Source: Xanthobacter aminoxidans
GTDB lineage: Bacteria; Pseudomonadota; Alphaproteobacteria; Rhizobiales; Xanthobacteraceae
Reading direction: 5' to 3'
NCBI RefSeq assembly: GCF_023571765.1
Contig: NZ_JAMJXC010000027.1
Coordinates: forward strand, 1-46,377
DNA length: 46,377 nucleotides
Shown: piece by piece, positions 1,752 to 36,172 of the stretch
Layout: every line of letters begins with the position of its first letter
How positions within the stretch are numbered: the stretch's first letter is position 1
Position numbers and translations under genes: made by a program
The notes under the pieces: generated by a model
Database searches by the model: none
What the model saw: only the letters and a program-made list of their open reading frames with translations
Told to the model about the DNA's origin: nothing

Positions 1752-4700
1752 CGCTTGTACTCGGTCATGGAGATGATGCGCGACCCGTAGAAGCCGGATG
1801 AACCGACGCCGCCGACCACAACGCGATAGGTGGTCGATCCGGATATGTTTGCAGTATCGAGAAACTCCAGAGGAAGCGGATTGCCTCCAAAGTTGATCAT
1901 CATCGTTCCGAACGAATATCCAGCCGGATATGCGCCGATGAACAGCGTTTCGCTGTAGACAACCGTCTCGGCGGCGCCGGCGACCGAGCGATATACTGTG
2001 ACCGGCACTGTCCCGCTGCCGCGATCGGTGTAAGGCATATTCCAGGCGTTCGTGCCGATGTTCGCCCGGATGATGCAGGACGATCCTGCCGTGCGGACGA
2101 TCGATGTCGTGAACACCGTGATCGTCGTCGCCGTGGGGGTGGACGGTGGCGGAAGGGATGTCGTCAGGGTTTCGGTGACGAACGCCGTCACCGCTCCCGG
2201 CGCGATGTTGGTCGTCGCCACGCCGCCGATGATGATCTTGTCGGTGGTGATAGACGATGCCTCAAGATTGATCGTCTTCACAGCGCCAGCGGCGATCTTC
2301 GGTGCGGTGATGGTGCCATCGGCGATGACATCGGCGGCGATGTAGATTTTGGGGGTCGGGCCGGAGCTGTCCACCAGAAAGGCCGCCGTTGGGTTCGCAC
2401 CTCCCGAGGTGATGAGGAAGCGATCGGCGTCAAACCAGACCTCGCTATAGGCTCCGCCGGGGCCAGACTTTGCGACGATCAGCATGCCGGCTTCGGCACC
2501 CTCGGCCATCGCCTTGGCCCGAAAGGCCGCGAGCGCGCCGGCCGGCGTCACGTCCGCCACGAAGCTCACATTGAGGCTGGCACTCAGGCCGCCAACAGTT
2601 GCGGTGAGGTCCGTGATCTGCGCGGCCAGCGCCGTGTCGCCAGATACCCGCGCTCCACTCTCGCTGCTGATAGAAGCCGCGAGGCTCGCATCAGCAGTCT
2701 CCAAGGATGCCTGCAACGTCGTGATCTGCGCGGCCAGCGCTGTGTCGCCAGATACCCGCGCTCCACTCTCGCTGCTGATAGAAGCCGCGAGGCTCGCATC
2801 AGCAGTCTCCAAGGATGCCTGCAACGTCGTGATCTGTGCGGCCAGCGCGCTGTCAGGGCCGACAGCAACGGTGATCTCCTCTTTGAAGTTCGCGACGGCA
2901 GCGCCGATCCGAACTGTGAGCGAGCGAGCGATTTCCTGCCGCTCAAGCATGCCGGCCGCGTCCGCATCCGCAACCACTAATGCAAGCCCAGAAAGCTCAT
3001 TCCGGATCGAGGAAAGGGCGGACTGAACACGTTCGACCACGAGGTCATGGGTTGGCCCCGTGAATTGCTCGGCAGATACCGGGAGCTTGCTGGCATCGAT
3101 GACCGGCGCGGCCACGTCCACCGTCGCCCACGGCCCCTGCGTCGCACCCACGGCGGAGACCTGAAGCCGGAGCGCCGCCGGCTCCACCACCACGGAGAGT
3201 TCCGCCGTCGTCACATCCGGGAGCGAAGCCCAGCTATCTCCTTCGTCGTAGGAGATCCGCACCCGGTAGAAGGTCGCCCCGGATGCAGGAAACCACGAGG
3301 CGGAAAGCACCGGCTCCAACACGTTCTGTTCCACCGTCGCGAGCAATCCCGCGACGATGGGCGCCTTCGGCAGGCTGAGGGATGGCAGGCCCGGAAGGGG
3401 ATCGGGCGCGCCATCGTCGTCATGGACGCGCGGATCATCCACGACGAAGGTCAGGGACACCCGGTCGCCGTTCGGCGCCCCGGACAGGGCGATGCACCGG
3501 CGCTGCCACGCGGATCCCATTCCATGGGCGAAGGTCGGCAGCTCCGATCCTTCGGCACGCGCGAGCACCGCCGCCAGTGTCTGCCCCTGCGCCGTCTCGA
3601 CAATGGCAAGATCCGCCGCATCGAGGACGCAGAGGGCATCCGATCCGCCCCGTGCGCATTTCACCGGTCCAAAGGCCGCGCCCGTCCTGTCCCGCAGCAC
3701 CACGTAGTGCTGCCCCGCGCCCGCCCATGCCGGCGGAGGCTCAAGGGTTAGGGTCGCCCCGGCTCGTGCCGCAACCACGCCGGCGGCGCCCCACGCCCCC
3801 GGCAAGTCGGACTGGATCTGCACGTGCTCGCCGAGGCTGATCAGCCGCCCATCGTGTTCCGTGGTGACCGAGGGGCGCACCCGGCGATAGACGTTCTGCC
3901 GGTAGTGGAAACCGGCCTCGCGATAGGCCTGCGCCCGCTGCGCGATGCCGGGGATCTGCATGCGCATCGGGTTCTCGGCCACGACGGCGGCGGGATACTG
4001 GACCTCCTCGGCCTGCCAGGTGGTCTCATCCACATATTCGACGATGACCGCATCGGCCGCGTCGGAAGAGGCGAACTCATAGTCCACGGCGAAGGTGCCG
4101 CGCACCGTCTCCCGATCCGTGAGCAGCATGCTCGGCACCGCGCGCCATTCGTCGCGCACCAGCGTGAGCATATCGCCGGCCCAACGGTGCTTCGCCCGAA
4201 CCGTCGCCAAGGCCGTGTCGAAGGCCTCCGGGACGCCGACCGAGGACGTGAACTCATAGTCGAAGCAATCGCCCCGCGCCGCCGCCGTCGCCGCCAGCGC
4301 CAACACGCCCTGCAGGTCCACCTTCGCGGCCGACCGACGCGCGCCATAGTCGGTGTTGGTCGCCATGTCCCAGAATGCCCAGGCCGGCGAGCGCGTCGGC
4401 TGTTCCACCCAGGCCGATCCCGACCACACCGGCAGGATCCGGGTCTCGATCACCTTCAGGGCCTGCGCTGCGGCCGAGGTCAGTTGCTGCGTCGCCTTCA
4501 GCCGGAGCGCGATCGTGCTGACGCCGGCGAAAGCCCGCGCCCCCGACAGGAAGGCGCGCAGGCCCATCCACACGATCGTGTCCGAGACGTTGCTGTCCGT
4601 GCTCGGCGCCGAGGACCGCTTCAGGCGAACCTCATAGCGGCCGGGCGCCACCGTCACCTTGAAGCTCCAACGCTTGGGCTTGTTCGTCACGCCGCCGAGG

Positions 4701-7052: not shown

Positions 7053-9409
7053 CGGCCGACACCCCGCATGGGATTGAGGCCGAAGCGGGCGCGCACGGCC
7101 TGCCCCATTGGCCCCATGGTGGTCATGTCGGCGGCGAAGACCTTGCGCACCATGGCCTCGATATCCGCCGTGGCGTCGCGCAGCGCGGCCCGGAGGTTAT
7201 CCCGGTCGCTGGCGCGCCCGTCGTTCCCGCCGCCGGTCTGGTTGATCACGAAGGAGGGGGAGACGCTCACATTGTTACTGAAGGCGTTGCGGATCATGGT
7301 CTCAGCGGGGGAGATCGGCACGCGCACATCCACCGGGATCCGGCGGCCGTCCGGCAGGGGCACGGCCGCTTCCGGCCCGGCCTCGCCGAAGATCGCCGCG
7401 TTCCGCGAGACGCCGCCACGCGCATACTTCTTCAGCTTGCGGGGGCCTTGCGGGGTCATCACGCCACCATCGGCAAATTTGAAGGAGCCCCCGACCTCTT
7501 TGATGACACCCCCGATAATGCCGCCGCCGCCCGATCCGAGCGGCCCCTCGCCGAGCAAGGCCGCCTTCAGCGCCATTTCCGCGAGGAGCTTGATGCTGTC
7601 CTTCAGCACGTCATTCCAGCTCTTCGTTCCGTCGATCAGACCCATGATCGAGCTTTGCGCGAGATTGCCCACCTCCTGCTGCATCTCGCGCTGGCGCTCC
7701 TGCGACGCCTTCGTCTTCTCAATGGCGGCCGTCACATCGCCATAGCGCGCGGCGAGCATCTGGAGTTGCTGGAGCTGTTCCGGCGAGAGCTTGAGATTGT
7801 GCTCCTGCGCCATGTTGATGGCGTCCATCATGAACTTGTATTCGGCGGCGGCCTGCGTCGTCATGCCGAGCTGCGCCTGTTCCTGCTGAAGATCCCGCAG
7901 GCGCTCCGACATGGTTTTCTGCACATCCTTGAAGCCGTAGCCGATGGAGGGGTCCGGCTTCGTCCCCGGGGGCTTCACCCCCTCAACACTCGCCTTCAAT
8001 TCATCGAGCCGCTTCTGCGCAAGATCGACGGCCGCGATGTACTTTTCCAGCGCCGCCGTCATTTCTGCCGTGTCGGCGGTCGGCATCTTCGCGTTGTACT
8101 TGCCGGCCCACCCGCCCACTTTCTGGTTGGCCGCGACGGCGCGAGCGTATTCCAGTTCGGCCCTTGCATCGGCGAGCGCCTTCTCGGCATTGGTCACGTG
8201 CTGGTCGGCCAGGGCCTTCAGCTCTTCCTTGGCATCAGGCGCGCCAGCTTTGACCCGCGCAATGGCCCCGTCGAGGTCTCCCATCGCGCTCTTGTGCGCC
8301 TCGGCCGCCACCTTCGCTTGGTCCTGCCGGAGAGCGAGCGCGGCAATGGTCCCGACCGCCGCAGCGATGACAATGCCCCAAGGGCCGCCGAGAAGGCTCA
8401 AGGCGGCACTGAGACCGGCCGACGCGAGCGCGGCCGTGCGCTGCGCCGCCGCAACGGCGAGAATGGTGGCATTGAGGGCCGTGATCCTGCCGGCCGCCGT
8501 GACCGCCGCCGCCGCCGCCGAGGCCAGCGACGCGGCGAGAGGACCAAGCACGATGCCGAAGGTGACGGCACCGATCGCGACGCCGATCGCGAGGATTTCC
8601 GTCTTGTACTTCTCCAGCGCGGCGGCGCCTTCGAGGACGCCGGACTTCAGCGCGACCTCGATCTTGAGCGCCAGCATGTCGAACATCTTGGCGACCTTGG
8701 CCGCCTCTTTCGCCACCTCATCCGACATGACGAGACCGAGGCGCCGTGCCTCCTCGCGCGCCTTCGAGATCGAGCCAATCCCTTGATCCATGAACCGCAG
8801 GAACTGCTCGCCGCCGGTGCCACCGAATATCTCATCCGAGATCCGGATCTGCCCCGCCTTGCTGAAGCGCTTCATCTTGTCGATGATCTCTTCGAACAGG
8901 GCGGCGGGATCCTGCAGCTTCTGTTTCAGCTCGCCGGCCGTATAGCCGAGGCGCTTGAACGCCTCCTCGCTCGATCCCGCGCCGGTGCGGATGAACTCAT
9001 CCGCCCGCAGCTGCATTTCCTTCAGGCCATCGGTCAGCGCATCCACGCCGACGCGCGCCTGTTCGGCCGCAAACTTCAGCTCCTGAAAGGGCTCGAAGGC
9101 GACGCCGGCCTTCTGCGCCTCGGCCGCGAGATCCGCCACGGAGGTGGCCGCCGCCTTGAGCGTCGTGATGGCACCGGCGATGCCGCCGCTGGCGATGATG
9201 CCGGCGCCGCCGAGCGCCTCGAAGGCGGAGCTTATCGAGGCCGTGGACCCGTTGAAATAGTTCTTCAGGTTCACGGCATTCTGCTGCGCCCGCTTCTCGA
9301 TCTCCAGAAAGCGGCGGTTGGAGACGGCCTTCGCCTTCTCGAAGTTCTTTTCGAAATCGCGGATCCGCGCCTCAAGGGCAACGACAAGACGTTCCTCTTC
9401 GCCGGCCAT
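7049..9409 (-). CDS. Tail length tape measure protein
   Basis: A 786-residue protein with the usual tape-measure layout. It has a charged N-terminal coiled coil (about 1-50), hydrophobic helices around 265-300 and 330-355 (GPWGIVIAAAVGTIAALAL), long Ala/Lys/Glu-rich coiled coils (about 375-600), and a Gly-rich C-terminal part with FADGGVMTPQGPRKL and GEAGPEAAVPL, a motif seen at the end of many lambda-type tape measures. It lies directly after the tail chaperone, tube and completion genes. The length predicts a tail of roughly 110-120 nm if about 0.15 nm per residue holds, which is a rule of thumb rather than a measurement. Confidence 0.92.
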   Translation of the reverse strand: MAGEEERLVVALEARIRDFEKNFEKAKAVSNRRFLEIEKRAQQNAVNLKNYFNGSTASISSAFEALGGAGIIASGGIAGAITTLKAAATSVADLAAEAQKAGVAFEPFQELKFAAEQARVGVDALTDGLKEMQLRADEFIRTGAGSSEEAFKRLGYTAGELKQKLQDPAALFEEIIDKMKRFSKAGQIRISDEIFGGTGGEQFLRFMDQGIGSISKAREEARRLGLVMSDEVAKEAAKVAKMFDMLALKIEVALKSGVLEGAAALEKYKTEILAIGVAIGAVTFGIVLGPLAASLASAAAAAVTAAGRITALNATILAVAAAQRTAALASAGLSAALSLLGGPWGIVIAAAVGTIAALALRQDQAKVAAEAHKSAMGDLDGAIARVKAGAPDAKEELKALADQHVTNAEKALADARAELEYARAVAANQKVGGWAGKYNAKMPTADTAEMTAALEKYIAAVDLAQKRLDELKASVEGVKPPGTKPDPSIGYGFKDVQKTMSERLRDLQQEQAQLGMTTQAAAEYKFMMDAINMAQEHNLKLSPEQLQQLQMLAARYGDVTAAIEKTKASQERQREMQQEVGNLAQSSIMGLIDGTKSWNDVLKDSIKLLAEMALKAALLGEGPLGSGGGGIIGGVIKEVGGSFKFADGGVMTPQGPRKLKKYARGGVSRNAAIFGEAGPEAAVPLPDGRRIPVDVRVPISPAETMIRNAFSNNVSVSPSFVINQTGGGNDGRASDRDNLRAALRDATADIEAMVRKVFAADMTTMGPMGQAVRARFGLNPMRGVGR

Positions 9410-9729
9410 CAGTCCACTCCCCGTGCAATGGTGCGGATCTCCAGGCCGCGCCTGCGGCCGAGTTCCTTGATTTCCTTGATGTCGTAACCCACCCCGTCGA
9501 AGCGGATGCGGTCACGCGTGGTCACGCCGGCGAGCCAGCGGGTGCGGAAGATCGTGGCGGTGTCGCCCTGCAGGCCGGAGCCCTGCAGGAATTCCGAGGT
9601 GCTGGACTGGATGAGGCTTGCCCACAAGGTCGCCACCGGCGCCCATGTGGTGGTCAGCACCCCGTCTGCGTCCCGCGCCTCGGTTCCGCGCTCGATCGTG
9701 ATGCGCCGGTCCATCTGTCCCGCCTTCAC
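9409..9729 (-). CDS. Phage head closure (head-tail joining) protein
   Basis: A 106-residue protein of the SPP1 gp16/HK97 gp7-like head-closure family. Typical features are the start MKAGQMDRRITIERGTEARD, the central WAPVATLWASLI strand, the GDTATIFRTRW strand and the final RFDGVGYDIKEIKE. Its start overlaps the upstream gene by 4 nt and its stop overlaps the tape measure start. Placement after the tube and terminator genes, rather than next to the connector, is unusual compared with HK97, but the family assignment rests on sequence. Confidence 0.75.
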   Translation of the reverse strand: MKAGQMDRRITIERGTEARDADGVLTTTWAPVATLWASLIQSSTSEFLQGSGLQGDTATIFRTRWLAGVTTRDRIRFDGVGYDIKEIKELGRRRGLEIRTIARGVD

Positions 9730-16121: not shown

Positions 16122-17837
16122 TCACGCCATGAGAATGCCACGGCTCTCGTAGACCGAGAGCCCACGGGCGACCGGATTGCGGCTCACCATGTCCACCGCG
16201 TTGAAGAAGGCCATGAGCGGGTCGATCTTCGCCGAGGCCTTGCGCTTCTCGATGTAGACGTTGGAGCCACGGTACTCGGCCATGGCATTGCCGACACACC
16301 AGTTGAACAGCCCCGAGCCGCAGTGCTTTAGCGTGCCGTCAGCGAGCATCCGCTCCGCAGCGAAGATCGCCGAAGACAGCTTGTAGCCTTGCGAAACGCT
16401 CATGACCTGTGGATGCACGATGCCGTTTTCGGACAAGGCATAAACCAGAGGCCGGGCCAATGCGGGGTCGAGGCCGATAGCCCCGGTCTTCGGTAGCAGC
16501 CCGTGCAAATCGAGTTTGAGGATGATCTCAACCACCTCTGCGAGATCCTGCTCCACGTGCTGGCACACCACCAGGTCACCAGCCTTCTCGAAGTCCCGCA
16601 GCGTCTCGGCGATTTCCTTATGGGTCTCGAACACCTTGAGCTGCGCCCAGGCGCGCCCCCATACCCGCCACTTCCGCGTCTCCTTATGGCGGCCCGCGAC
16701 GGCGAGGCCGTACAGGTCGTACATGCCGCCGATGTCGCCGCCCACCACCGCCACATCCGATGTCGCGATGATGTTTTCGAGCGTGATGGCGGGATCCGCC
16801 GCCTGTGGCCAGAAATCCGCGCCGACCCACCTGTCATTGTGCATGGCCATGCCGATCTGCACATTGAGGTGCTGGGAGGCCCATTCCTGCGCAGCCTGAT
16901 CACCCTTCTCCTGCGCGGTGCGCCATTCCTTGGCGAGGCGCTCGATCGTGAGCGAGCGGCCGAGATTGGGCAGCACCATCGGCCAATTCTTGGGATCGGC
17001 CCACGGCTTGCCCTCGGCCGTCTGCATCTTCTCCGAGAACTCATAGAGAATGGGGAGCATGCGCACCCCTTCGGTAATCGTCCCGTCGCGCACGCCCCGC
17101 GCATAGGTCAGCTCATCCTTGAAGACGCCGGCGGGTGGCGTCGCCGATTGCGTGGTGATGATGATCAGGAGGCTTTCGGGGTTCGTGATCATGCCGCCCC
17201 GGATCTGGCCGAGAACGCGGCTGGCGTAGCTCGCTGCCGCCATCTCGTGCAGCTCGTCCACGATAGCGAAGGCGGGGATAGAGCCGGTGACCACCTTCGG
17301 GCTGAAGCTCGTGATCTTCAGCTTCACGTTTCGCTTGACCCCCGTGATGGGGTCCACGTGAAGATCGAGGATCGTTTTCTTGTGTTCGATCACGTCGAAG
17401 CGGCGCTTCAGATAGGGATCGAGCCTGATCATGGCCGCCGCCTGCGCGAAGCACTTGTCGGCCACCTCCTGCGTCGGCCCGACGATGACCCCTTCCACGT
17501 TGGGGCGCTGGTTGAGCTGCAGGGCCAACAGGCCGAGCGCGGCGGCGTTCGTTGTCTTCCCGTTCTTCTTCGGCACCAGGTTGAAGATCTCGCCGACGAA
17601 GCGCTCTCCGGTCACCGGATCGATAGAGCCGAAGGCTGCGCGCACAATGTCCCGCATCCACGGCCCGGCCACCTCCGCCATGGTGGGCGTTCCGGGGATG
17701 TCGGGGACGCGCAGCTTGTCGAAGAGGGCCACGGCGCAATCGGCGAGCACCGGATCCAGAGGCAGAGATGGAATGGGCGTGAGACCCTTCCGCAACCTGT
17801 CTTCCCAATCGAGGCAGGCGAAGGACGGCGCGGTCAA
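16122..17837 (-). CDS. Terminase large subunit
   Basis: A 571-residue packaging motor of the Terminase_1 type. The ATPase domain has a deviant Walker A (LVPKKNGKTT, residues about 88-96) and a Walker B ending in AIVDELHEM (about 195-203). The coupling motif is in LLIIITTQSATPPAG. The nuclease domain contains VVGGDIGGMYDLYGLAV and a later acidic residue in GAIGLDPALA. The start overlaps the small terminase stop by 4 nt. Confidence 0.95.
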   Translation of the reverse strand: MTAPSFACLDWEDRLRKGLTPIPSLPLDPVLADCAVALFDKLRVPDIPGTPTMAEVAGPWMRDIVRAAFGSIDPVTGERFVGEIFNLVPKKNGKTTNAAALGLLALQLNQRPNVEGVIVGPTQEVADKCFAQAAAMIRLDPYLKRRFDVIEHKKTILDLHVDPITGVKRNVKLKITSFSPKVVTGSIPAFAIVDELHEMAAASYASRVLGQIRGGMITNPESLLIIITTQSATPPAGVFKDELTYARGVRDGTITEGVRMLPILYEFSEKMQTAEGKPWADPKNWPMVLPNLGRSLTIERLAKEWRTAQEKGDQAAQEWASQHLNVQIGMAMHNDRWVGADFWPQAADPAITLENIIATSDVAVVGGDIGGMYDLYGLAVAGRHKETRKWRVWGRAWAQLKVFETHKEIAETLRDFEKAGDLVVCQHVEQDLAEVVEIILKLDLHGLLPKTGAIGLDPALARPLVYALSENGIVHPQVMSVSQGYKLSSAIFAAERMLADGTLKHCGSGLFNWCVGNAMAEYRGSNVYIEKRKASAKIDPLMAFFNAVDMVSRNPVARGLSVYESRGILMA

Positions 17838-18334
17838 TGCTGCCGCCGGCCTTCGAGGCGCGCATAGATGTCGCCGTAGTCGTCGGGCACGGCTTGGGCA
17901 TCTTGGACGCGCTGTTCCTTCTTGCCCAGGGCCGGCGCCTTCGCGTCGTCGTCATCCTCCGCGCGCGGATGGTTCCGGGGCGCCAGCGGCCCCGCCGCGT
18001 CCAGCCGTTCCAGCAGCAGGCGAACGGACTGGATGTGTCCCTCGCGCGCCTTATGCACGAGCACGTCCATGAGCATGCCCCGGATGTGCACCGCGCCGTC
18101 CATCAGCTCGCGGGAAAAATGTTTGCGCAGGGTCTTCTCATCGATCCCCATGTTCGCGGCGATGGCCTTGTGGGTCCAACCATCCGCGACGCGCACCATT
18201 ACAAACTCTTGATTTTCCTTGTCTTTCTTGAAGCTTGGTCGGCCACGCCGATCCCGAATGGGCTCGATCTCGTTTCCGAACAGATCACACGGGGCGACAT
18301 CAGGGGCCACCCCGCCCGATTTCTCATCAGCCAA
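17834..18334 (-). CDS. Terminase small subunit-like DNA-binding protein
   Basis: A 166-residue protein with a helix-turn-helix at about residues 45-75 (VADGWTHKAIAANMGIDEKT), which suits recognition of the packaging site. Basic and acidic linkers follow and the C-terminus is YGDIYARLEGRRQH. The start appears to be TTG at 18334, preceded by GGAGA at about 10 nt. A GTG 8 codons later is an alternative. The assignment rests on the HTH plus its place directly before the large terminase and after the HNH gene. Confidence 0.75.
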   Translation of the reverse strand: MADEKSGGVAPDVAPCDLFGNEIEPIRDRRGRPSFKKDKENQEFVMVRVADGWTHKAIAANMGIDEKTLRKHFSRELMDGAVHIRGMLMDVLVHKAREGHIQSVRLLLERLDAAGPLAPRNHPRAEDDDDAKAPALGKKEQRVQDAQAVPDDYGDIYARLEGRRQH

Positions 18335-18915: not shown

Positions 18916-19545
18916 TCAAATTTTCGTCGCATGGTCAAGCGGGATCTTGCAGCCATCCTCGACATAGACGAGAGGCGGCAGGAACCACGGCTCACGAGGG
19001 GCAGACGGGGCAAGGGGATGACTACCCTCCAGCCGCCCCGCAAGCTCGCCGGCGAGCACCGAAAGGGCCTCCCACCAGACGACATATTGGGCGCGGCTGA
19101 ACTCCACCAAAGCGGGATCGACCTTGTGCCGGAGACAGCAGGCGACGGGCCGGCGATCGGTGCCGAGCATCACGCGCACTCGCCCGCGCCGATCCGTGTC
19201 AGCCACCAGCGCCTCGGCCTCGATCCCATGCCATGGCGGACGGCTCCCGCCCTTCGCATGCGCGACCACCAGTCCGAAGGCCTCGGCCGGCAGGCGCAGC
19301 ACCGCGTCGTGGATCACAAGCGCATCGTCCTGCGCCGTCGCACCCATGGCGACCACAAAGCCCGGCGAGCTGTCCACCCGCACCCCAAGCGCGGCGAAGT
19401 CGAGCATCGCATGCGTCGCGGAGCGGAACGACGGCCCGGCCTCGCCCCAAGCGACATCCATCAGCCCGGCCATACGGTCCACGCACTGCACCCGATAGGC
19501 CCAGCCCACAAGCGCCTCGATATCCCCCCCATCGGCCATGCTCAT
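18916..19545 (-). CDS. Unknown conserved-looking early/late junction protein
   Basis: A 209-residue protein I do not recognise. It contains RVQCVDRMAGLMDVAWGEAG, an ACCLRHKVDP segment and a C-terminal WFLPPLVYVEDGCK; there is no signal peptide or membrane helix. The ATG at 19545 sits 4 nt from the first two copies of the TATCCCACC repeat, and the AGGGG that serves as its ribosome binding site is continuous with the repeat. The gene's expression, or a protein bound at the repeats, may be linked to replication. A same-length ORF on the opposite strand is taken as a shadow. Confidence 0.6.
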   Translation of the reverse strand: MSMADGGDIEALVGWAYRVQCVDRMAGLMDVAWGEAGPSFRSATHAMLDFAALGVRVDSSPGFVVAMGATAQDDALVIHDAVLRLPAEAFGLVVAHAKGGSRPPWHGIEAEALVADTDRRGRVRVMLGTDRRPVACCLRHKVDPALVEFSRAQYVVWWEALSVLAGELAGRLEGSHPLAPSAPREPWFLPPLVYVEDGCKIPLDHATKI

Positions 19546-19549
19546 CCCC

Positions 19550-19829
19550 TATCCCACCTATCCCACCTCTAAGAACAAAAGAAAGAAGGTAGGATAGGCA
19601 CAACCCATTGGCGTTGTTCGCAATATCCCACCTATCCCACCTATCCCACCTTCCAAGCCCATTTGAGAAAGTGCTGAGACACGGACCGACCACCCAAACG
19701 TCCTGTTGCGCGCGCGCACGCGCACGGGGGAAATAAGGTGGGATAGGTGGGATAGGTGGGATACGCCATTCAGCAGCAAGGCTTTGCGGCTATCCCACCT
19801 TCCCAGCCTATCCCACCTCAGGTGGGATA
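19550..19829. repeat. Cluster of TATCCCACC iteron-like repeats; candidate replication origin
   Basis: Eleven exact copies of TATCCCACC or its complement lie in 280 bp. Forward: 19550, 19559, 19624, 19633, 19642, 19791, 19809. Reverse: 19737, 19746, 19755, 19821. Degenerate copies lie at 19588 (reverse, one mismatch) and 19800. The forward and reverse triplets form a perfect 27-bp inverted repeat (19624-19650 with 19737-19763). Between them is an alternating GC tract (19707-19723). A hairpin of 11-bp stem and 3-nt loop (19807-19831) follows the PrimPol-helicase stop, with no T-run. Confidence 0.9.
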
Positions 19830-19841
19830 GGGGCGGCGCGG

Positions 19842-22418
19842 CTACGGAGTATCGTCATCGAGATACTCCGCATCGGGGGCGTATCCGTCCGCCGGGCCCC
19901 AATCGATTTCTTGCCCCATCTCCCGCGTGAAGGCGGCACGGCATTCCTCCAGGGGCGGCAGCTGGTAACACCAGACCTGTTTCCGGACGGCGCCTGAATA
20001 GTCGATCATCCGCCGCACCCGCTGGAGGCCCGGCAGGAGCTTCGCAAGCCTGATGCCGAAGGCGGTCATGTCGCTCTTGCGGCGCACGCCCACCTTGTCC
20101 GCATTCGCCACGTAATCATCGAAGAGCGTCGCGCTGGGTAGAAGATCAACCCATTTTTCAGCCGAGGCCGTCGCTGCCCCGGCTAGCAGCCGTTCGTAGA
20201 GCCAACCATCCACACTGTCGAACGAGCGCTGCTTTTGCTCCAGCAAGGCCTTCGTGCGCGGGATCTTCCGGAGATCGACTGTGCTGATATCGAGGGCAAG
20301 GAGATCGTGCAGCAGCGCCTCCCGCCCACCGGCATTTAGTTGCTCATCCATCTCCCGGAAGTAATCCGTCTTCTGCGCGCAGCGTAGGCTGATATCGAGC
20401 ACGCAAAAGCGCCTCTCATCCTTGCCGGCGGGCACCACCCAATCTTCATTGGAGGTCATCATCAGGCGCACGTTGTTGACGATGCGGATCGGATCGACCC
20501 CCTTCGCCTCGATCATCTGGTACTTCGAGGTGACAAGGCCCTTGAGCCGGCCCTCTGCCGCCTTGTCGCCGGCCCACACGGCCTCTTCTGCCTGCAGAAG
20601 AAGACAGCTCGCCATATGGGCATTGAACTGCCCCACCACATAGCGGGGATCATCCACCATGAAATAATGCGCCGAGAACAGCGAGCCGATGACCTCACCC
20701 ACCTTGGTCTTTCCGGTTCCCATCTTGCCGCGTATGACGATGGCGGTGCCGATCCTCTCGCGCGGACGCTGCATCATGTGCGCGAACCACGCCCACACCC
20801 ACCGAAACAGCGCTTCATTTTCTTCGCAGACGTTGGTCAGCACATGGTCGCGAAATATGGCATAGCTGCCGCCGGGCTTCGGCTTCACGGAGAAGCCCCG
20901 CCAGAGGTTGAGATAGCCCGGCGTACCTTTCGCACCGTCCGGATTGGGAAAGAACTCGATCCCGCGATACTGTCGCCGCTTAGGGTGCGTGAACCAACGT
21001 TTCGCATAAGTCATGCCCTTGACCTTGTCATCGGGCGAGACGACTTCCGTATATGTATTCGCGAACCATGAGTTGAAGTCCTGAATACCAACAAACCGCA
21101 TCTGTTCGTCAATGGGCGCATGGGGCTGTTCCTGCATGATCACAGCCTTTCCGCCCATGAGAACCATGGCGAATTCCGCGTTCAGCTCATCGAGGTCAAA
21201 GCCGCAGTCGCGCGCCTGCCGTATCTCGCCCGCGCCGCCCTCCGGCGCCCCGTCGTCGCTATCCTCCTCGCCAGCACCGTCCGGCGCCATGGCCTCCAGA
21301 GCCGCAGTCGCGTCCTCCAACTCGCCCGCGTCTTCCGCTGGAGGCAAACCCTCCTCATCGTCAACAGCCGCTGGCGGCACGAGCACAGCCCCATCCGGGA
21401 GCGGGGGCTCCGGCGCGCGGGTGCCGCCGAATGAGCGCCGCCGCTCCTCGGCCTCGCGCGCAACCTCATCGAGGCGTGCGATCACGTCCGCCGCGTCGCC
21501 GGCGCCGGTGTCGAGGCCGCGCCGGATATCGCGCGACACCCGGTTGCGCCCGTCCTCCCGCATCAGGCCGTTTGCATCGGCCCCATCCTCCAGCGCGGCG
21601 AGCGCCTCGCGTTCAGAGATCGCGCCGGCGGCGACGAAGCGCCCCAGCTGGCAAGCGGCTGTGAACAACGCCGTGCCGCGCGTCCCCTGCGGCGCGCGGG
21701 CGAGATCCGCCGCGATCCGATCGAGGGCCGCGCGCGCATAGCGCCGCTTCGCCTCCTCGCCAGGGCGATCCGAGGCGAGCACACGCGCTGGCCCGCTCTC
21801 GCGCGGTGACAGGGCCGGGCCATCATTGTCATGACGATGCAGCTTGCGATCCGCGATCAGCTTCAGGAGCGCAGGAGGCACCTCCGGCGCCGTCGCCGGG
21901 TCGAAGGGCTCGCCCTCCCACCGATAGGCGTTCCCGTTCGCCAGAACGCTCGGCGGCAGGATGACATAGCCGCCATCACAGCGGATATCGATGTTCTTCA
22001 GCCCAGGCGGATCATTGGGGAAATGAGCGCCCTCCGGCCGGCGGAACCACACATGCCGGCCACCCGATTGCGTGACGGTGCGCGGGCCGGCCGGCAGAGG
22101 CGCGCCGAGCGCCTCGGCAAGACGCGCCTCCACCGCCTCGACGCTCTCGCCCTTGGGATCGAGATCCACCACATAGCCGCCAGCCCAGCCGGGGGCCATG
22201 CCGATCAGGGCGTTGGGCCACCTCGCCCACCACGCGCGGATCTGCGCTTCGTCCGTGGTGGCCTTCAAGGGCCAGCCGGTGCCCTCGATCGGCTTGCCGT
22301 CCGGCCCCTTGTCCGCCACCACCAGAGGCCGCTTCGAGCGCGGCTTATGGGGGTGAGGGTCGCACGGGAAGATCCGCAGGCCGAGCACAACGGCATAGTA
22401 CAGCGCGGCTTCGAGCAT
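19842..22418 (-). CDS. Primase-polymerase/helicase replication protein
   Basis: An 858-residue replication protein. The N-terminal primase-polymerase (PrimPol) domain has the metal-binding VVDLDP motif (Asp85/Asp87), SGGRHVWF (118-125) and IDIRCDGGYVILPPS. An acidic linker follows (about 300-400). The C-terminal DUF5906/SF3-like helicase has Walker A IRGKMGTGKTKVGEV (around 560-570), QAEEAVWAGDK and MMTSNEDWVVPAGKDERRF. I chose the ATG at 22418; a GTG at 22433 overlapping the previous stop is possible. It probably initiates phage DNA synthesis, and the iteron cluster begins 13 bp beyond its stop. Confidence 0.88.
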   Translation of the reverse strand: MLEAALYYAVVLGLRIFPCDPHPHKPRSKRPLVVADKGPDGKPIEGTGWPLKATTDEAQIRAWWARWPNALIGMAPGWAGGYVVDLDPKGESVEAVEARLAEALGAPLPAGPRTVTQSGGRHVWFRRPEGAHFPNDPPGLKNIDIRCDGGYVILPPSVLANGNAYRWEGEPFDPATAPEVPPALLKLIADRKLHRHDNDGPALSPRESGPARVLASDRPGEEAKRRYARAALDRIAADLARAPQGTRGTALFTAACQLGRFVAAGAISEREALAALEDGADANGLMREDGRNRVSRDIRRGLDTGAGDAADVIARLDEVAREAEERRRSFGGTRAPEPPLPDGAVLVPPAAVDDEEGLPPAEDAGELEDATAALEAMAPDGAGEEDSDDGAPEGGAGEIRQARDCGFDLDELNAEFAMVLMGGKAVIMQEQPHAPIDEQMRFVGIQDFNSWFANTYTEVVSPDDKVKGMTYAKRWFTHPKRRQYRGIEFFPNPDGAKGTPGYLNLWRGFSVKPKPGGSYAIFRDHVLTNVCEENEALFRWVWAWFAHMMQRPRERIGTAIVIRGKMGTGKTKVGEVIGSLFSAHYFMVDDPRYVVGQFNAHMASCLLLQAEEAVWAGDKAAEGRLKGLVTSKYQMIEAKGVDPIRIVNNVRLMMTSNEDWVVPAGKDERRFCVLDISLRCAQKTDYFREMDEQLNAGGREALLHDLLALDISTVDLRKIPRTKALLEQKQRSFDSVDGWLYERLLAGAATASAEKWVDLLPSATLFDDYVANADKVGVRRKSDMTAFGIRLAKLLPGLQRVRRMIDYSGAVRKQVWCYQLPPLEECRAAFTREMGQEIDWGPADGYAPDAEYLDDDTP

Positions 22419-22420
22419 GG

Positions 22421-23338
22421 TCACAGGCCGCACCCCGCTTCACAAACCATGAGCAGGCCTTGGCCTGCCTCTTCATCTGTGCGGAGATCAACCTCCTCCA
22501 ATGGCACCCGTGAGCGATGAAGGAATTCCTGTTCCCGCATACCCGGCGTGCAGCGGATAAGCCGGTCGATCTCAACGGCATCGGCCCATGCCTGCGGGTC
22601 ATTGTCGCGAAGCCAGCGCCACTCTGCATTCGACTTGTAGGGGCAGAAGATGCAGGCGCTCTTGGGCGGCACCGGGAAGCCATGGCCCTCCAGCCATGCG
22701 ACGCAATCGCGCCGCGACATCCGCTGTTCCAGCAGCGGATAACGGTTCACCGTCCACGAGGTGAACGCGGCGCCGGCACGCACTACCTCATCGGTGGATA
22801 TGCCGATCCATACCTCACAGGCGCCGGCCGGAATGCGCTGGCGCGGCGCGAAGCCGAGAAGCTCGCGCTGCTTCTTCTCAAGCGGCTCGATCTTAAACTC
22901 GCGGGTGCACTGCCGCCTGCCCTGCCCGCCCCGACCATCCTTTCCGCGTAGAGTGTAGAATGGCGCGCTGACAAACCGATCATTGTTGATGACACCGCGC
23001 CCGGCCGCACGATTGCGAATGCGATCGGAAAGCCGCCCCCCACGGCTCACCCGGTGGGTCTCAACGCGCCCATTGCTGTAGAGGCGGACTTGAGCATCCA
23101 GCCAATCGAGATGGCGCATGGTCGCCTCGCTCTCGTCGCCCACATCAGCGTTGATGATGTGATCAACCCACGGAAGCTCGCCGACGCACATCATCAAGAT
23201 CATGGTGGACGACTGGATGCCTCCACCATTCGACAAGACACGCAGCTTCGCGTCTTCGACAGGCCCCCATGACCAGCCGCCGCGACGGACGCGGGCACGG
23301 TTGGGAGCTTTGGGCGAGGTGAGGACAAGTTCCGTCAC
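22421..23338 (-). CDS. PAPS reductase/DndC-like PP-loop protein
   Basis: A 305-residue member of the phosphoadenosine phosphosulfate reductase superfamily. It has the PP-loop variant LSNGGGIQSSTM near residue 40, RQCTREFKIEPLEK (about 143-156) and a late Cys pair in SACIFCPYKSNAEW, which may bind an iron-sulfur cluster or zinc. The start is GTG at 23338 with AGGAGG upstream; it overlaps the methyltransferase stop (GTGA). In phages such proteins are not thought to serve sulfate assimilation. A role in nucleic acid modification is suggested by the neighbouring methyltransferase but is not proven. Confidence 0.8.
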   Translation of the reverse strand: MTELVLTSPKAPNRARVRRGGWSWGPVEDAKLRVLSNGGGIQSSTMILMMCVGELPWVDHIINADVGDESEATMRHLDWLDAQVRLYSNGRVETHRVSRGGRLSDRIRNRAAGRGVINNDRFVSAPFYTLRGKDGRGGQGRRQCTREFKIEPLEKKQRELLGFAPRQRIPAGACEVWIGISTDEVVRAGAAFTSWTVNRYPLLEQRMSRRDCVAWLEGHGFPVPPKSACIFCPYKSNAEWRWLRDNDPQAWADAVEIDRLIRCTPGMREQEFLHRSRVPLEEVDLRTDEEAGQGLLMVCEAGCGL

Positions 23339-25141: not shown

Positions 25142-25458
25142 GCGAAACCTCCCGCCCCGTTCGCGGTGACCGCAGGCGATCCATCGGCCAAGCTGGCGTC
25201 ATGACCCGCCGCCGCCTCACCAGCCCCGCCCTCGAAGCAGCTATTGCCGAGCTGCGGAGGGCGGCGGGCATCCTCAGCGAGGCGCTGCAGATCATCGAGA
25301 ACGCCGGCAATTCCGACCTGCACATAAGCCGCGGTCGGTGGGCCACGGGTCTCCCAACGAGAGATGGTTCCTTGGTCCACGCCGAAGCGTGCCCCGAAAG
25401 CCCCTTGGCTTTCGCCAACTGCAGCGCGTGCCGCGCGGATATGGCTCGCTGTGATCAT
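25138..25458 (-). CDS. Cro-like XRE-family repressor
   Basis: A 106-residue protein with one helix-turn-helix at about residues 5-40 (GESQGAFGARFGVDQGTISRW) followed by a short helix and a Gly/Ala-rich tail. It is the first gene of the leftward early operon, divergent from cI, and starts 73 bp from it with three palindromic operators between. That position and the small size make it the Cro analogue. Confidence 0.85.
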   Translation of the reverse strand: MITASHIRAARAAVGESQGAFGARFGVDQGTISRWETRGPPTAAYVQVGIAGVLDDLQRLAEDARRPPQLGNSCFEGGAGEAAAGHDASLADGSPAVTANGAGGFA

Positions 25459-25465
25459 GAGCGTG

Positions 25466-25494
25466 ACGATGCAAAACGCATCGCATCATGTCAA
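25466..25494 (-). promoter_or_regulatory. Leftward early promoter (cro operon)
   Basis: On the minus strand a consensus TTGACA lies at 25494-25489. At 17-nt spacing the -10 position reads CATCGT (25471-25466), which is weak. The -35 box lies next to operator 2 and the -10 overlaps operator 1, as needed for repression by CI. The same layout occurs at the rightward early promoter. Confidence 0.65.
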
Positions 25495-25528
25495 TGCCAA
25501 ATGCATCGTTCTCTTATGCATTCTGCAT
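25469..25528. promoter_or_regulatory. Three CI/Cro operators, ATGC-N5-GCAT
   Basis: Operator 1 is ATGCAAAACGCAT (25469-25481), operator 2 ATGCCAAATGCAT (25494-25506) and operator 3 ATGCATTCTGCAT (25516-25528). Centres are 25 and 22 bp apart, about two helical turns, so bound dimers would lie on one face. Operator 3 ends 3 bp before the cI start codon and may serve autoregulation of cI. Confidence 0.85.
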
Positions 25529-25531
25529 CGC

Positions 25532-26143
25532 ATGAGTGACGCACATACGAGACTAGTGTGGGCGAGGGAAGCCGCCGGGTACGAAAAGGCCGCAGATGCG
25601 GCGCGAGCTATGGGCGTTCCACTCCCCACCTATAACGCACACGAGAATGGCTCTCGTGGGTTCCGCCGCATGGCGCAGCAGTATGCGTCCAAATACCGAG
25701 TTTCATTGGAATGGCTTTTGACTGGCAAGGGACAACCCCGCCCTGGCATGAAAAGGTCTATTCCTGTGGTGGGATACGTTGGGGCAGGCGCTGAGGTTTT
25801 TTCCATCGACGACTCGATCAAGGGCGCAGGCATCGACGAAATCGAACCGCCTCCGGGCGCCAGCTCTAACGCCGTCGCTGTAAAGGTGCGTGGCGATTCA
25901 ATGCGGCCGGCGTTCTACGACGGCGACTACATCATATATGACGACCGGCGCGAGGGAAGTGAGATCGCCCAATATCTAGGTCGCGAATGCGTTGTCCACC
26001 TGATGGATGGAAGAACATTCATCAAAAACTTAAGTGCAGGATCGACCCCGGGCACATGGAGTCTTTGGAGTTACAATGCGGCCCCCATCCAAGATGTCAG
26101 GATTGAGTGGGCAGCCCGCGTTCGATGGGTGGAACGTGCATAG
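25532..26143 (+). CDS. CI-type repressor, HTH plus S24 peptidase
   Basis: A 203-residue repressor. The start is the ATG at 25532 just after operator 3; the longer upstream frame runs through cro and the operators and is rejected. The N-terminal XRE domain spans about 5-65 (ADAARAMGVPLPTYNAHENG). The S24 self-cleaving domain has Ser123 in RGDSMRPAFYDGDYI and Lys165 in RTFIKNL, with Ala85-Gly86 in VGYVGAGAEV as the likely cleavage site. RecA-stimulated self-cleavage, and so induction by DNA damage, is expected from the family. Confidence 0.92.
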   Translation: MSDAHTRLVWAREAAGYEKAADAARAMGVPLPTYNAHENGSRGFRRMAQQYASKYRVSLEWLLTGKGQPRPGMKRSIPVVGYVGAGAEVFSIDDSIKGAGIDEIEPPPGASSNAVAVKVRGDSMRPAFYDGDYIIYDDRREGSEIAQYLGRECVVHLMDGRTFIKNLSAGSTPGTWSLWSYNAAPIQDVRIEWAARVRWVERA

Positions 26144-34648: not shown

Positions 34649-34886
34649 CATCCTACCCATCAGCCTGCCCCCGCGCGGCCTCTCCCGCACCGAGGCTGCG
34701 GCATATATCGGCGTGTCCGCCGGCACCTTCGATCAGTTGGTGAAGGACGGCCGCATGCCGCCAGCGAAGAGGATCAACTCCCGCACTGTGTGGGATCGCA
34801 GGAAACTTGACGCAGCGTTCGATGCGTTGCCCGATGGCGCACAAGAGGAAAACCGCGACGATCCGTGGGCACGGGTGGCGGTATGA
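34635..34886 (+). CDS. Excisionase-like helix-turn-helix protein
   Basis: An 83-residue protein with a MerR/AlpA-type winged HTH: LSRTEAAAYIGVSAGTFDQL, then KDGRMPPAKRINSRTVWDRR. It overlaps the previous gene by 14 nt and the integrase start by 4 nt. Small proteins of this kind directly before int are usually excisionases or directionality factors, so xis is the most likely role. Confidence 0.75.
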   Translation: MARHDILPISLPPRGLSRTEAAAYIGVSAGTFDQLVKDGRMPPAKRINSRTVWDRRKLDAAFDALPDGAQEENRDDPWARVAV

Positions 34887-36007
34887 AGAGCGGCGCACCC
34901 ATGCTGGACCGGCTGCAATACGTCTATGAGGACATGGACCGCCACGGGAACGTGCGGATCTATGTGTGGCGCGGCAAGGGTCACAAGAAGTTCCGCATCC
35001 GCGAGCGCCCCGGCACCCCGGAATTCCGCAAGGCCTATGATGAGGCGATTGCGCGCGCCTTCTCCCCCGTCCCCATCGAGCCGGAGGAGACGGAAGAGAA
35101 GTCCCGCGACCGCACCCCAAAGCCCGGCACGTTCCGGTGGATGTGCATTCGGTTCATGGCCGAGAGCGCGGACCACAAGCGCGACAGCGCGCGCACCCGC
35201 CATGTCCGCAAGCTCATTCTGGAAAGCATGTTCGAGGAGCCGACCGAGCCCGGCGCCAAGACCTTCTATGCGGACTTTCCCCTTGATCGACTCTCGGTCA
35301 AGGCGATCCGCGTGCTGCGCGATCGCAAGCTCGCCGCGCCGGAGGCCGGCAACAGCCGAATCAAGGTGCTCCGGAAGGTGTTCAATTGGGCGATCGCCGA
35401 TGAACTCCCCGGCATCACGGTCAACCTTGCCCGCGACGTGCCCTATTTCACGGCGGCCGGTAACGGCTGGCACACATGGACCGTGGACGAGATCGAGCAA
35501 TATGAGGCACGGCACCCCCTCGGCTCCAAGGCCCGCCTCGCGCTCGCGCTTCTCCTCTACACCGGCGTGCGGCGCTCCGATGTGGTCCAGCTCGGCCGCC
35601 AGATGATCCGGAACGGATGGCTGCGCTTCACGGAGATGAAGGGCCGCCGCCACCTCGTGAAAGAGCGGGAGATCCCCGTCCTGCCGCGGCTCCAGGCGGT
35701 CATAGACGCCACGCCCGGAAGCCACATGACCTTCCTCGTGACGGAATTCGGCGCGCCCTTCAGCGACGCCGGGTTTGGCAACTGGTTTCGCGATCGATGC
35801 GACGAAGCTGGCCTGCCCCAGTGCTCGGCCCACGGCCTGCGCAAGGCCGGCGCCACGATCGCCGCCGAGAACGGCGCGACCGAGCATCAGCTCATGGCGA
35901 TCTATGGATGGGAGAGCCCCAAGCAGGCCGCCCGCTATACCAGGAAGGCGAACCGCAAGCGCCTCGCCGGCGACGCGATGCACCTCGTGGCGCCGATCAA
36001 AGAGTGA
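34883..36007 (+). CDS. int: Tyrosine-family integrase
   Basis: A 374-residue tyrosine recombinase. The start at 34883 overlaps the excisionase-like stop (ATGA). The N-terminal arm- and core-binding part is about 1-210. The catalytic domain has Arg in LLLYTGVRRSDVVQL (about 229), the His-x-x-Arg motif SAHGLRKAGATIA (about 316-319) and Tyr in QAARYTRKANR (about 350). The gene ends 89 bp from the 3' end of tRNA-Phe, the usual arrangement for a prophage that recombines at a tRNA. Confidence 0.95.
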   Translation: MKSGAPMLDRLQYVYEDMDRHGNVRIYVWRGKGHKKFRIRERPGTPEFRKAYDEAIARAFSPVPIEPEETEEKSRDRTPKPGTFRWMCIRFMAESADHKRDSARTRHVRKLILESMFEEPTEPGAKTFYADFPLDRLSVKAIRVLRDRKLAAPEAGNSRIKVLRKVFNWAIADELPGITVNLARDVPYFTAAGNGWHTWTVDEIEQYEARHPLGSKARLALALLLYTGVRRSDVVQLGRQMIRNGWLRFTEMKGRRHLVKEREIPVLPRLQAVIDATPGSHMTFLVTEFGAPFSDAGFGNWFRDRCDEAGLPQCSAHGLRKAGATIAAENGATEHQLMAIYGWESPKQAARYTRKANRKRLAGDAMHLVAPIKE

Positions 36008-36096: not shown

Positions 36097-36140
36097 TGGT
36101 GCCCAGGGGCGGAATCGAACCACCGACACTGCGATTTTCA
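36097..36140. other. Candidate attachment site within tRNA-Phe 3' half
   Basis: The 3' half of the tRNA gene, from the CCA end (36097) to the anticodon loop, faces the integrase and would be the bacterial/phage common core. The second copy should flank the prophage left of position 1, so the core length cannot be read here. Confidence 0.5.
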
Positions 36141-36172
36141 GTCGCATGCTCTACCAACTGAGCTACCTGGGC
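36097..36172 (-). tRNA. tRNA-Phe(GAA)
   Basis: On the minus strand the 76-nt gene starts GCCCAGGTAGCTCAGTTGG. The anticodon arm is GCGACTGAAAATCGC (anticodon GAA), the T arm GGTTCGATTCC, the acceptor 3' strand CCTGGGC, the discriminator A and an encoded CCA. All four arms pair. The gene is intact despite the prophage inserted at its 3' end, so integration regenerates the tRNA. Confidence 0.97.

Follow-up and report, generated by a model that had tools for sequence, protein, structure and literature searches.

To our knowledge, apart from a few model phages, most temperate phages have no mapped replication origin. On iteron plasmids, replication (Rep) proteins of the RepA type have no helicase or primase domains, and the iterons usually lie upstream of the gene. 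The array described here differs in both respects, as it lies downstream of a gene encoding a primase-helicase. It occupies 280 bp (positions 19550–19829) of a 46,377-nt stretch of DNA from Xanthobacter aminoxidans (NCBI RefSeq assembly GCF_023571765.1, contig NZ_JAMJXC010000027.1) that is one whole contig of its genome and is called the window below.

Among the closest described systems are the Staphylococcus aureus pathogenicity islands (SaPIs). According to the accounts in PMC6092414 and PMC7581432, the C-terminal domain of their Rep recognises the origin, apparently as two hexamers. The C-terminal region (CTR) of the NrS-1 polymerase is described in PMC7102993 as ring-shaped. For plasmid pRN1, the account in PMC4234260 describes a region 3' of the gene that is needed in cis, and proposes a long stem-loop without iterons. 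The array in the window keeps a fixed geometry across relatives, is linked to the helicase and covaries with its winged helix, strongly at residue 790 and more weakly at residues of the wing. From these comparisons the array is very probably the origin from which a temperate tailed phage replicates, and the primase-helicase encoded just upstream its initiator, acting through the winged helix.

The iteron array

The window contains 12 exact copies of the 9-mer TATCCCACC on either strand, compared to an average of 0.08 and a maximum of 2 after dinucleotide shuffling of its full sequence. Chance repeats were ruled out as the origin of the array by these shuffles. Eleven of the copies fall within 19550–19829, just 3' of the primase-helicase stop codon (19842–19844, minus strand). 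In the direction of the primase gene, the array begins with a pair, iteron 1 (19821–19829, minus strand) and iteron 2 (19809–19817, plus strand, a turned-round variant), which form a hairpin a few bases beyond the stop. An inverted single (iteron 3, 19791–19799, plus strand) and a triplet (iterons 4–6, 19737–19763, minus strand) follow, and then a gap containing a 20-base tract of alternating purines and pyrimidines (19707–19726, shuffle p 0.001). The distal half consists of a second triplet (iterons 7–9, 19624–19650, plus strand) that forms a perfect 27-bp inverted repeat with the first, an inverted single (iteron 10, 19588–19596, minus strand), a stretch that is T-rich on the primase strand (19568–19587) and a final pair (iterons 11–12, 19550–19567, plus strand). 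Direct tandem spacing throughout is 9 bp. All sites are exact matches except iteron 10, TATCCTACC, which has one mismatch. This site was missing from the list in the earlier note on this DNA, and with it the twelve-site plan seen in relatives is complete in the window. Most of the earlier note's description of the array is confirmed: the eleven exact 9-mers in 280 bp, the perfect inverted repeat of the two triplets, the hairpin right after the stop and a 9-bp spacing unlike chance are all found again in these positions and counts.

No second cluster of TATCCCACC occurs in the window. The remaining exact copy (25768–25776, minus strand) lies inside a CI-like repressor gene (25364–26143) and is probably there by chance, since 26 further copies are scattered through the rest of the 5.8-Mb genome.

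The primase-helicase

The candidate initiator (19842–22433, minus strand) is a protein of 863 amino acids (aa) characterised with Pfam and PHROG matches, AlphaFold2 and Foldseek. It consists of a PrimPol domain (residues 10–184), a superfamily 3 (SF3)-type helicase (DUF5906, residues 568–675; the match of the core to PF19263 has an E-value of 1.8e-21) and a predicted C-terminal winged helix at approximately residues 741–835. The AlphaFold2 model was built for residues 404–863 from 67 sequences (residue number equals model number plus 403). It has a mean predicted local distance difference test score (pLDDT) of 94 and ends in a helix, a helix, a two-strand hairpin and a terminal helix, with block means of 93 or more in residues 767–824, which span the two helices and the hairpin. 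The helix-helix-hairpin is read here as a winged helix, and this assignment is a prediction. Its recognition helix would span residues 789–799 and its wing strands residues 804–813 and 816–824. Residue 790 is then the second residue of the recognition helix, and the two wing strands contain residues 807, 808 and 819.

The top solved folds in Foldseek are the CTR of NrS-1 (E-value 3.8e-19) and the primase-helicase of SaPI5 (PriRep1). In sequence-profile searches NrS-1 alone gives a clear match (hmmsearch E-value 2.6e-24), which ends at profile position 364 of 444 and so stops before most of the winged helix. With a homologous helicase core and a predicted C-terminal winged helix, the protein fits the family of SF3/D5-type primase-helicase initiators to which NrS-1, SaPI5 Rep and Cch2 belong.

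Arrays beside homologous genes

Homologous loci (designated by L numbers) were fetched from viral contigs and genomes by protein searches. The DNA 3' of each stop codon was collected for 163 entries, including the window, and reduced to 145 distinct regions by removing those with an incomplete open reading frame (ORF), with less than 250 bp downstream or with identical first 250 bp. Loci L010–L027, at least some of which are contigs already in the set, were left out of the 163. Each region was scored by its best repeated 9-mer, allowing at most one mismatch, and a score of at least 4 was counted as a cluster. A cluster is present in 121 of the 145 regions, and 109 score at least 5, while control windows elsewhere in the same loci reach 4 in 51 of 866 cases and 5 in 18 of 866. 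The top score among shuffled regions (n = 73) is 3.2. Clusters are found at 90 of 96 loci with at least 50% identity to the helicase of the window, 12 of 13 with 45–50%, one of two with 40–45%, and 18 of 34 with less than 40% or no BLASTP match. Absence of the repeats beside homologous primases, the outcome that the earlier note had named as damaging, is thus the opposite of what is observed, the words being other ones.

The plan of these arrays is conserved. In the direction of the primase gene it consists of a pair, an inverted single, a triplet, a gap and the mirror image of these, giving 12 sites. It could be fitted to 110 of the 121 clusters. Of a possible 48 mismatches, 97 of the fits have no more than 24 and 70 no more than 16 (strict fits); the window has one. 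Among the strict fits, the triplets show the 9-bp period at both steps in 62 cases on the distal side and 64 on the primase side, and the triplet-to-single distance is 34–37 on the distal side (62/70) and 33–37 on the primase side (68/70). The second primase-side site is turned round in 23 of the 70, including the window. The distance from distal single to pair is 17–22 in 36 strict fits and 27–31 in 34, two classes approximately one helical turn apart that are partly imposed, as the spacing ranges were set after inspection of the data; the peaks at 35–36, 19–20 and 29–30 within the allowed ranges are not imposed. Shuffles of 92 non-redundant fitted loci (five each, 11 words) give no fit at 24 mismatches or fewer in 460 attempts, under a null in which the best word was not re-optimised; that all 92 real loci fit at this threshold is by construction. 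The length of the gap between the triplets shows no clear helical period (Rayleigh R 0.04–0.23 at 9.5–11.5 bp). At L175 the triplets 3' of the helicase stop have a 10-bp rather than a 9-bp period, with the iteron TGACATACC.

A search with the 18-bp tandem TATCCCACCTATCCCACC as the only criterion returned nine viral stretches, consisting of 4–12 kb of each contig. Five contain a cluster, and each of these also encodes a protein homologous to part of the primase-helicase of the window. One of these, L001, has the same type of helicase as the window with an array beside the gene, and the other four match in the PrimPol part alone at the cut-off used. Each of the remaining four has just one tandem pair and, in the 4–12 kb examined, no homolog. 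At L003–L006, phage contigs that match in the PrimPol part alone, repeats resembling TATCCCACC occur 3' of the PrimPol protein, and between them lie strictly alternating tracts of 20–29 bases that are not only GC, and at L005 the inner repeat groups face outward. Among 296 genomes of the family, the exact 18-mer is found in that of the window alone, which we attribute to the change of the word between phages.

Covariation of the iteron with the winged helix

For covariation, the 145 regions were restricted to the 97 that fit the twelve-site plan with at most 24 mismatches and then to 92 by collapsing proteins at least 93% identical, so that the statistics describe loci with a clear array; L051 and L091 are gapped at residue 790. 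These 92 loci have 58 different consensus words, roughly of the form [T/G/C]G[T/C]CC-N-A-[C/G]-C, while the plan remains constant. In partial Mantel tests of iteron distance against helicase distance, which allow for the rest of the protein, the correlation rises towards the C-terminus: residues 786–835 give r = 0.337 and residues 741–785 give r = 0.172 (0 of 300 permutations each), and residues 404–540, 541–700 and 836–850 give slightly negative values. Among 347 single columns, residue 790 is highest at 0.519 and the next is 0.23.

The pair formed by residue 790 and base 8 of the iteron has the highest normalised mutual information, both in the full set and in 66 strict loci, and remains at the top in 58 loci at 75% non-redundancy and when the window and L112 are removed. 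L112 (one contig with L010) encodes a relative of the window protein with 83% identity over its full length and 78% over the helicase half, and its word is YGCCCYACC. In a tree-aware test, using a tree from residues 404–740 with 182 branches and 2760 residue-base pairs, it ranks first (nominal p 1.4e-9), with 23 changes in each partner and 14 shared branches. Threonine at this position accompanies C in 46 of 48 loci, alanine G in 8/8, glutamate G in 5/5, asparagine G or A in 10/10 and lysine T in 2/2. Second in rank is residue 819 with base 2, where arginine accompanies G in 83 of 85 loci; glutamine occurs at 819 in only three loci, including the window, and base 2 is then A, A and T. Residue 807 with base 3 ranks fifth (arginine with T in 60/62, lysine with C in 11/19), and proline 808 accompanies G at base 1 in 22 of 26. 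L001, which was found by its DNA alone, carries T790 and Q819, as its word predicts.

The relation was then frozen as a table and applied to held-out loci. Of 34 tried, nine had no array and eight were at least 93% identical to training proteins, leaving 17. Base 8 is called correctly from residue 790 in 14 of the 17, against 11 for always calling C, although one of the correct calls (L292) rests on an alignment gap. All six loci without C are called correctly, as are 8 of the 11 with C. Judged from these alignments, the relations of residues 807, 808 and 819 appear weaker than that of residue 790, since they bring no gain over the commonest base in held-out loci.

The gap between the triplets

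The gaps of the 92 loci contain strictly alternating purine-pyrimidine runs with a median of 14 bases, compared to a shuffle mean of 6.6. Judged against shuffles, the run reaches p < 0.05 in 71 of 92 loci, and judged against other windows of its own locus in 72. It is 80% GC, and in 79 of the 92 loci no more than 19 bp separate its start from the primase-side triplet. It is not universal, as 21 of the 92 loci miss p < 0.05. The GC-alternating tract that the earlier note placed between the triplets of the window is real, but it lies off-centre in the 86-bp gap, only 10 bp away from the primase-side triplet. That such tracts are prone to form Z-DNA, or are otherwise easily opened, is a guess.

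The mean AT content of the gap is 35% in its first 30 bp (66 loci), 41% in the middle (61 loci) and 58% in the last 20 bp (66 loci), with 36% for coding DNA. The stretch between distal single and pair has a mean of 70% AT (65 loci) and is the most AT-rich of nine segments compared. AT-rich melting sites are thus still available, and the AT-rich piece beside the distal triplet could be one.

Partners of the array

Ten hand-picked relatives were scanned for neighbouring or fused primases. A Prim-Pol type is present in L047 and L091, as in the window, and the other eight (L038, L052, L064, L069, L083, L124, L136 and L162) have zinc-ribbon/TOPRIM/DUF7146 primases of the DnaG type. The same helicase and array therefore occur with two unrelated kinds of primase, either a PrimPol of the archaeo-eukaryotic primase (AEP) superfamily or a DnaG-type primase. 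The PrimPol domain was also considered as the reader of the sequence, and was dropped because arrays are kept with DnaG-type primases. The gene that follows the array varies as well, with 96 downstream ORFs falling into 47 clusters. As both the kind of primase and the next gene vary, the array belongs to neither of these but to the helicase and its winged helix.

The homolog also extends to plasmids. There are seven plasmid records with a distant homolog, of which three were read. A 9.7-kb Roseomonas plasmid (L304) encodes an initiator of 33% identity with a clear array directly downstream, scoring 9.2 and consisting of two inverted groups. Neither this plasmid nor a 9.8-kb plasmid of Methylobacterium nodulans (L305) has another initiator among its annotated genes, the gene tables being incomplete, and both fit the description of self-sufficient replicons. 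The longest alternating runs in these two small plasmids are 7 and 6 bases.

Proposed mechanism and alternative explanations

In the mechanism that we propose, the C-terminal winged helix of one protomer would recognise one 9-bp iteron, with residue 790 at the start of the recognition helix reading base 8, and residues 819, 807 and perhaps 808 of the wing reading bases 1–3. The six iterons on each side (pair, inverted single and triplet) would load a single hexameric SF3 helicase, and the two resulting rings would face each other over the central gap. Driven by ATP, the rings would open the gap, and the PrimPol domain would then prime synthesis both ways. That the protein binds directly, that six protomers occupy each half and that firing is bidirectional are inferences, as is any melting role for the alternating and T-rich stretches. 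The origin suggested in the earlier note gains support from the 121 of 145 regions with clusters and from the covariation of the iteron with the winged helix. Its suggestion that the primase-helicase acts at the repeats fits the winged helix, the part of the protein that best tracks the iterons, but not the PrimPol part, which the array can do without (8/10 loci with DnaG-type primases).

Besides the two limits on the geometry given above, several observations weigh against this reading. The 24 regions lacking a cluster include 6 of the 96 with at least 50% identity, one of 13 and one of two in the next classes, and 16 of the 34 with less than 40% or no match. The virulent phages YuA, RHph_I65 and FP1 have no array beside the gene. 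On the M. nodulans plasmid the 9-bp repeats, in two inverted groups, are degenerate and score 3.2, below the threshold, and the 98-kb Rhizobium plasmid pTH2c has no array (score 2.6). GC skew across the window shows no switch at 19.7 kb. Residues 701–740, before the winged helix, give a partial Mantel r of 0.105 (14 of 300 permutations). Ranks 3, 6 and 8 of the tree-aware test are held by residues 528, 432 and 414, outside the winged helix, so little weight should be put on any single pair ranked third or lower, and residue 808 with base 1 is outside the top 20. In the held-out loci residues 807, 808 and 819 give 10, 10 and 14 correct calls, compared to 12, 10 and 14 for the commonest base, and L001 has K807, at odds with its word.

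The alternative that survives best, which we nevertheless consider unlikely, is that the array is a regulatory or incompatibility site which the initiator binds mainly to repress its own or the late genes (copy control or immunity), with replication starting elsewhere, such as in the primase gene. The array does sit between the primase gene and the one that follows it on that strand, its distal pair abutting the start region of the latter (encoding a 209-aa protein), and phage P4 has, in addition to its ori, a second cis region (crr) in which the repeats of the ori recur. A regulatory site would not account as readily for a palindromic twelve-site plan around a gap, and the lack of a second cluster of the 9-mer in the window and the similar array immediately downstream of the homologous gene on the Roseomonas plasmid also argue against it.

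It is quite improbable that the iterons serve the PrimPol domain as templates for priming instead of being landing sites for the helicase, although this could be a second role. The SCCmec (staphylococcal cassette chromosome mec) primase-polymerase primes efficiently on its own iteron region according to PMC7581432. However, loci with DnaG-type primases keep the same array, and the covariation is found in the winged helix and not in the helicase core (the PrimPol domain lay outside the test).

A packaging (pac/cos) site is suggested by position, as genes for a small terminase-like protein (TerS; 17834–18334, approximately 1.2 kb further along the same strand) and a large terminase (TerL; 16122–17837) lie nearby. 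Repeats near terminase genes are common in phages. We give this explanation very little weight, as the iteron covaries with the winged helix of the helicase, different genes follow the array at different loci and a similar array is present on a small plasmid.

Binding of the repeats by the adjacent 209-aa protein as an independent factor, which the earlier note had offered, can hardly be upheld, as homologs were found downstream at only 11 of 145 loci by tblastn (nine of these among the 97 twelve-site fits), or for 28 of the 96 downstream ORFs by linked BLASTP clusters, and the covariation, tested with the helicase only, lies there.

Prophage context

The window carries a tailed prophage with genes for terminase, portal, protease, major head, major tail, tape measure and tail fibre proteins, in addition to a repressor and a single-stranded DNA-binding protein (SSB). 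The 209-aa protein (18916–19545, minus strand; phrog_9306, function unknown) is a neighbour of the array and not a likely binder; its AlphaFold2 model is poor (mean pLDDT 69), and a DNA-binding fold is neither shown nor excluded. An integrase gene (34865–36007, plus strand) is directly followed by a phenylalanine transfer RNA gene (tRNA-Phe; 36097–36172, minus strand), with ordinary bacterial genes of the host type beyond. This junction is likely the attachment site of the prophage.

Implications

More broadly, and only tentatively, these arrays may represent a widespread class of origin in phages and some plasmids. Such an origin would be a palindromic landing pad of twelve sites, six per helicase ring, with a 9-bp word set by a few residues of the winged helix. 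Residues and sites would have co-evolved many times, related phages might hold separate specificities, and in the phages the alternating tract might be a new strand-opening element replacing an AT-rich one. Comparison alone here predicts an origin, its initiator, the DNA-binding domain and one base-reading residue, and a probable start site and its probable reader can be followed as they evolve together across relatives. Dozens of natural pairs of protein and site are available for testing how the specificity of origin and initiator changes jointly, a step that seems to need many simultaneous changes of site. If the 6+6 plan does correspond to two helicase rings, it would be a bacterial counterpart of viral double-hexamer origins. 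An organisation described as special to phage-inducible chromosomal islands (PICIs) is also suggested to be common to phages with virion genes of their own and to at least one small plasmid.

Comparison with known systems

The array resembles the rep-ori region of PICIs and SaPIs as described in PMC6092414 and PMC7581432, where the origin lies directly 3' of the initiator helicase gene and two iteron sets flank a centre. The element in the window is, however, a prophage with terminase, head and tail genes of its own rather than a satellite, and whereas the PICI gap is described in those accounts as AT-rich, the gap here has a GC-rich alternating tract at its start. Our comparison adds the 6+6 geometry and the relation of residue to base; the PICI arrays were set beside ours by their description.

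By the annotation of its record, phage P4 (L303) has crr (4291–4590) directly 3' of the alpha gene. The P4 ori (9310–9413) contains six type-1 repeats in the orientation - - - + - -, that is, a triplet, an inverted single and a pair, which corresponds to one half of the array in the window. It differs in its spacings (10, 11, 22, 43 and 10), in its iteron, TGTTCACC, and in the distance of approximately 4.7 kb between ori and crr. The P4 primase is of the bacterial type according to PMC4234260, unlike the PrimPol of the window.

The D5-like helicase Cch2 of SCCmec is similar in that, as PMC7581432 describes it, its isolated C-terminal domain binds a putative origin downstream with short direct repeats. 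These are three iterons of 5 nt, and the account in that paper does not mention a palindromic twelve-site plan. The CTR of the NrS-1 polymerase (PDB 6k9c, 6lrb and 6k9e) is the best match of the helicase part in both structure and sequence; the main text of PMC7102993 contains none of the terms wing, helix-turn-helix (HTH) and replication origin. ORF904 of pRN1 and Bordetella phage BIP-1 share the combination of PrimPol, SF3 helicase and C-terminal winged helix in the account of PMC4234260. In the related and well-studied phage BPP-1 (L301), approximately 470–570 bp 3' of the primase gene bbp29, two tandem copies of TTGCCTCGT face two inverted copies, the pairs lying 68 bp apart around the alternating sequence CATACGTGTACATG. 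These repeats are possibly a small version of the same kind of origin.

Among the titles and abstract openings listed by literature searches of open-licence PMC articles, none describes the twelve-site plan in full phages or a residue-to-base relation for this helicase family. Taken together, these comparisons suggest that the array in the window works like a SaPI/PICI or P4 origin, and that it differs in its central element, its context in a full phage and the legible relation between protein and DNA.
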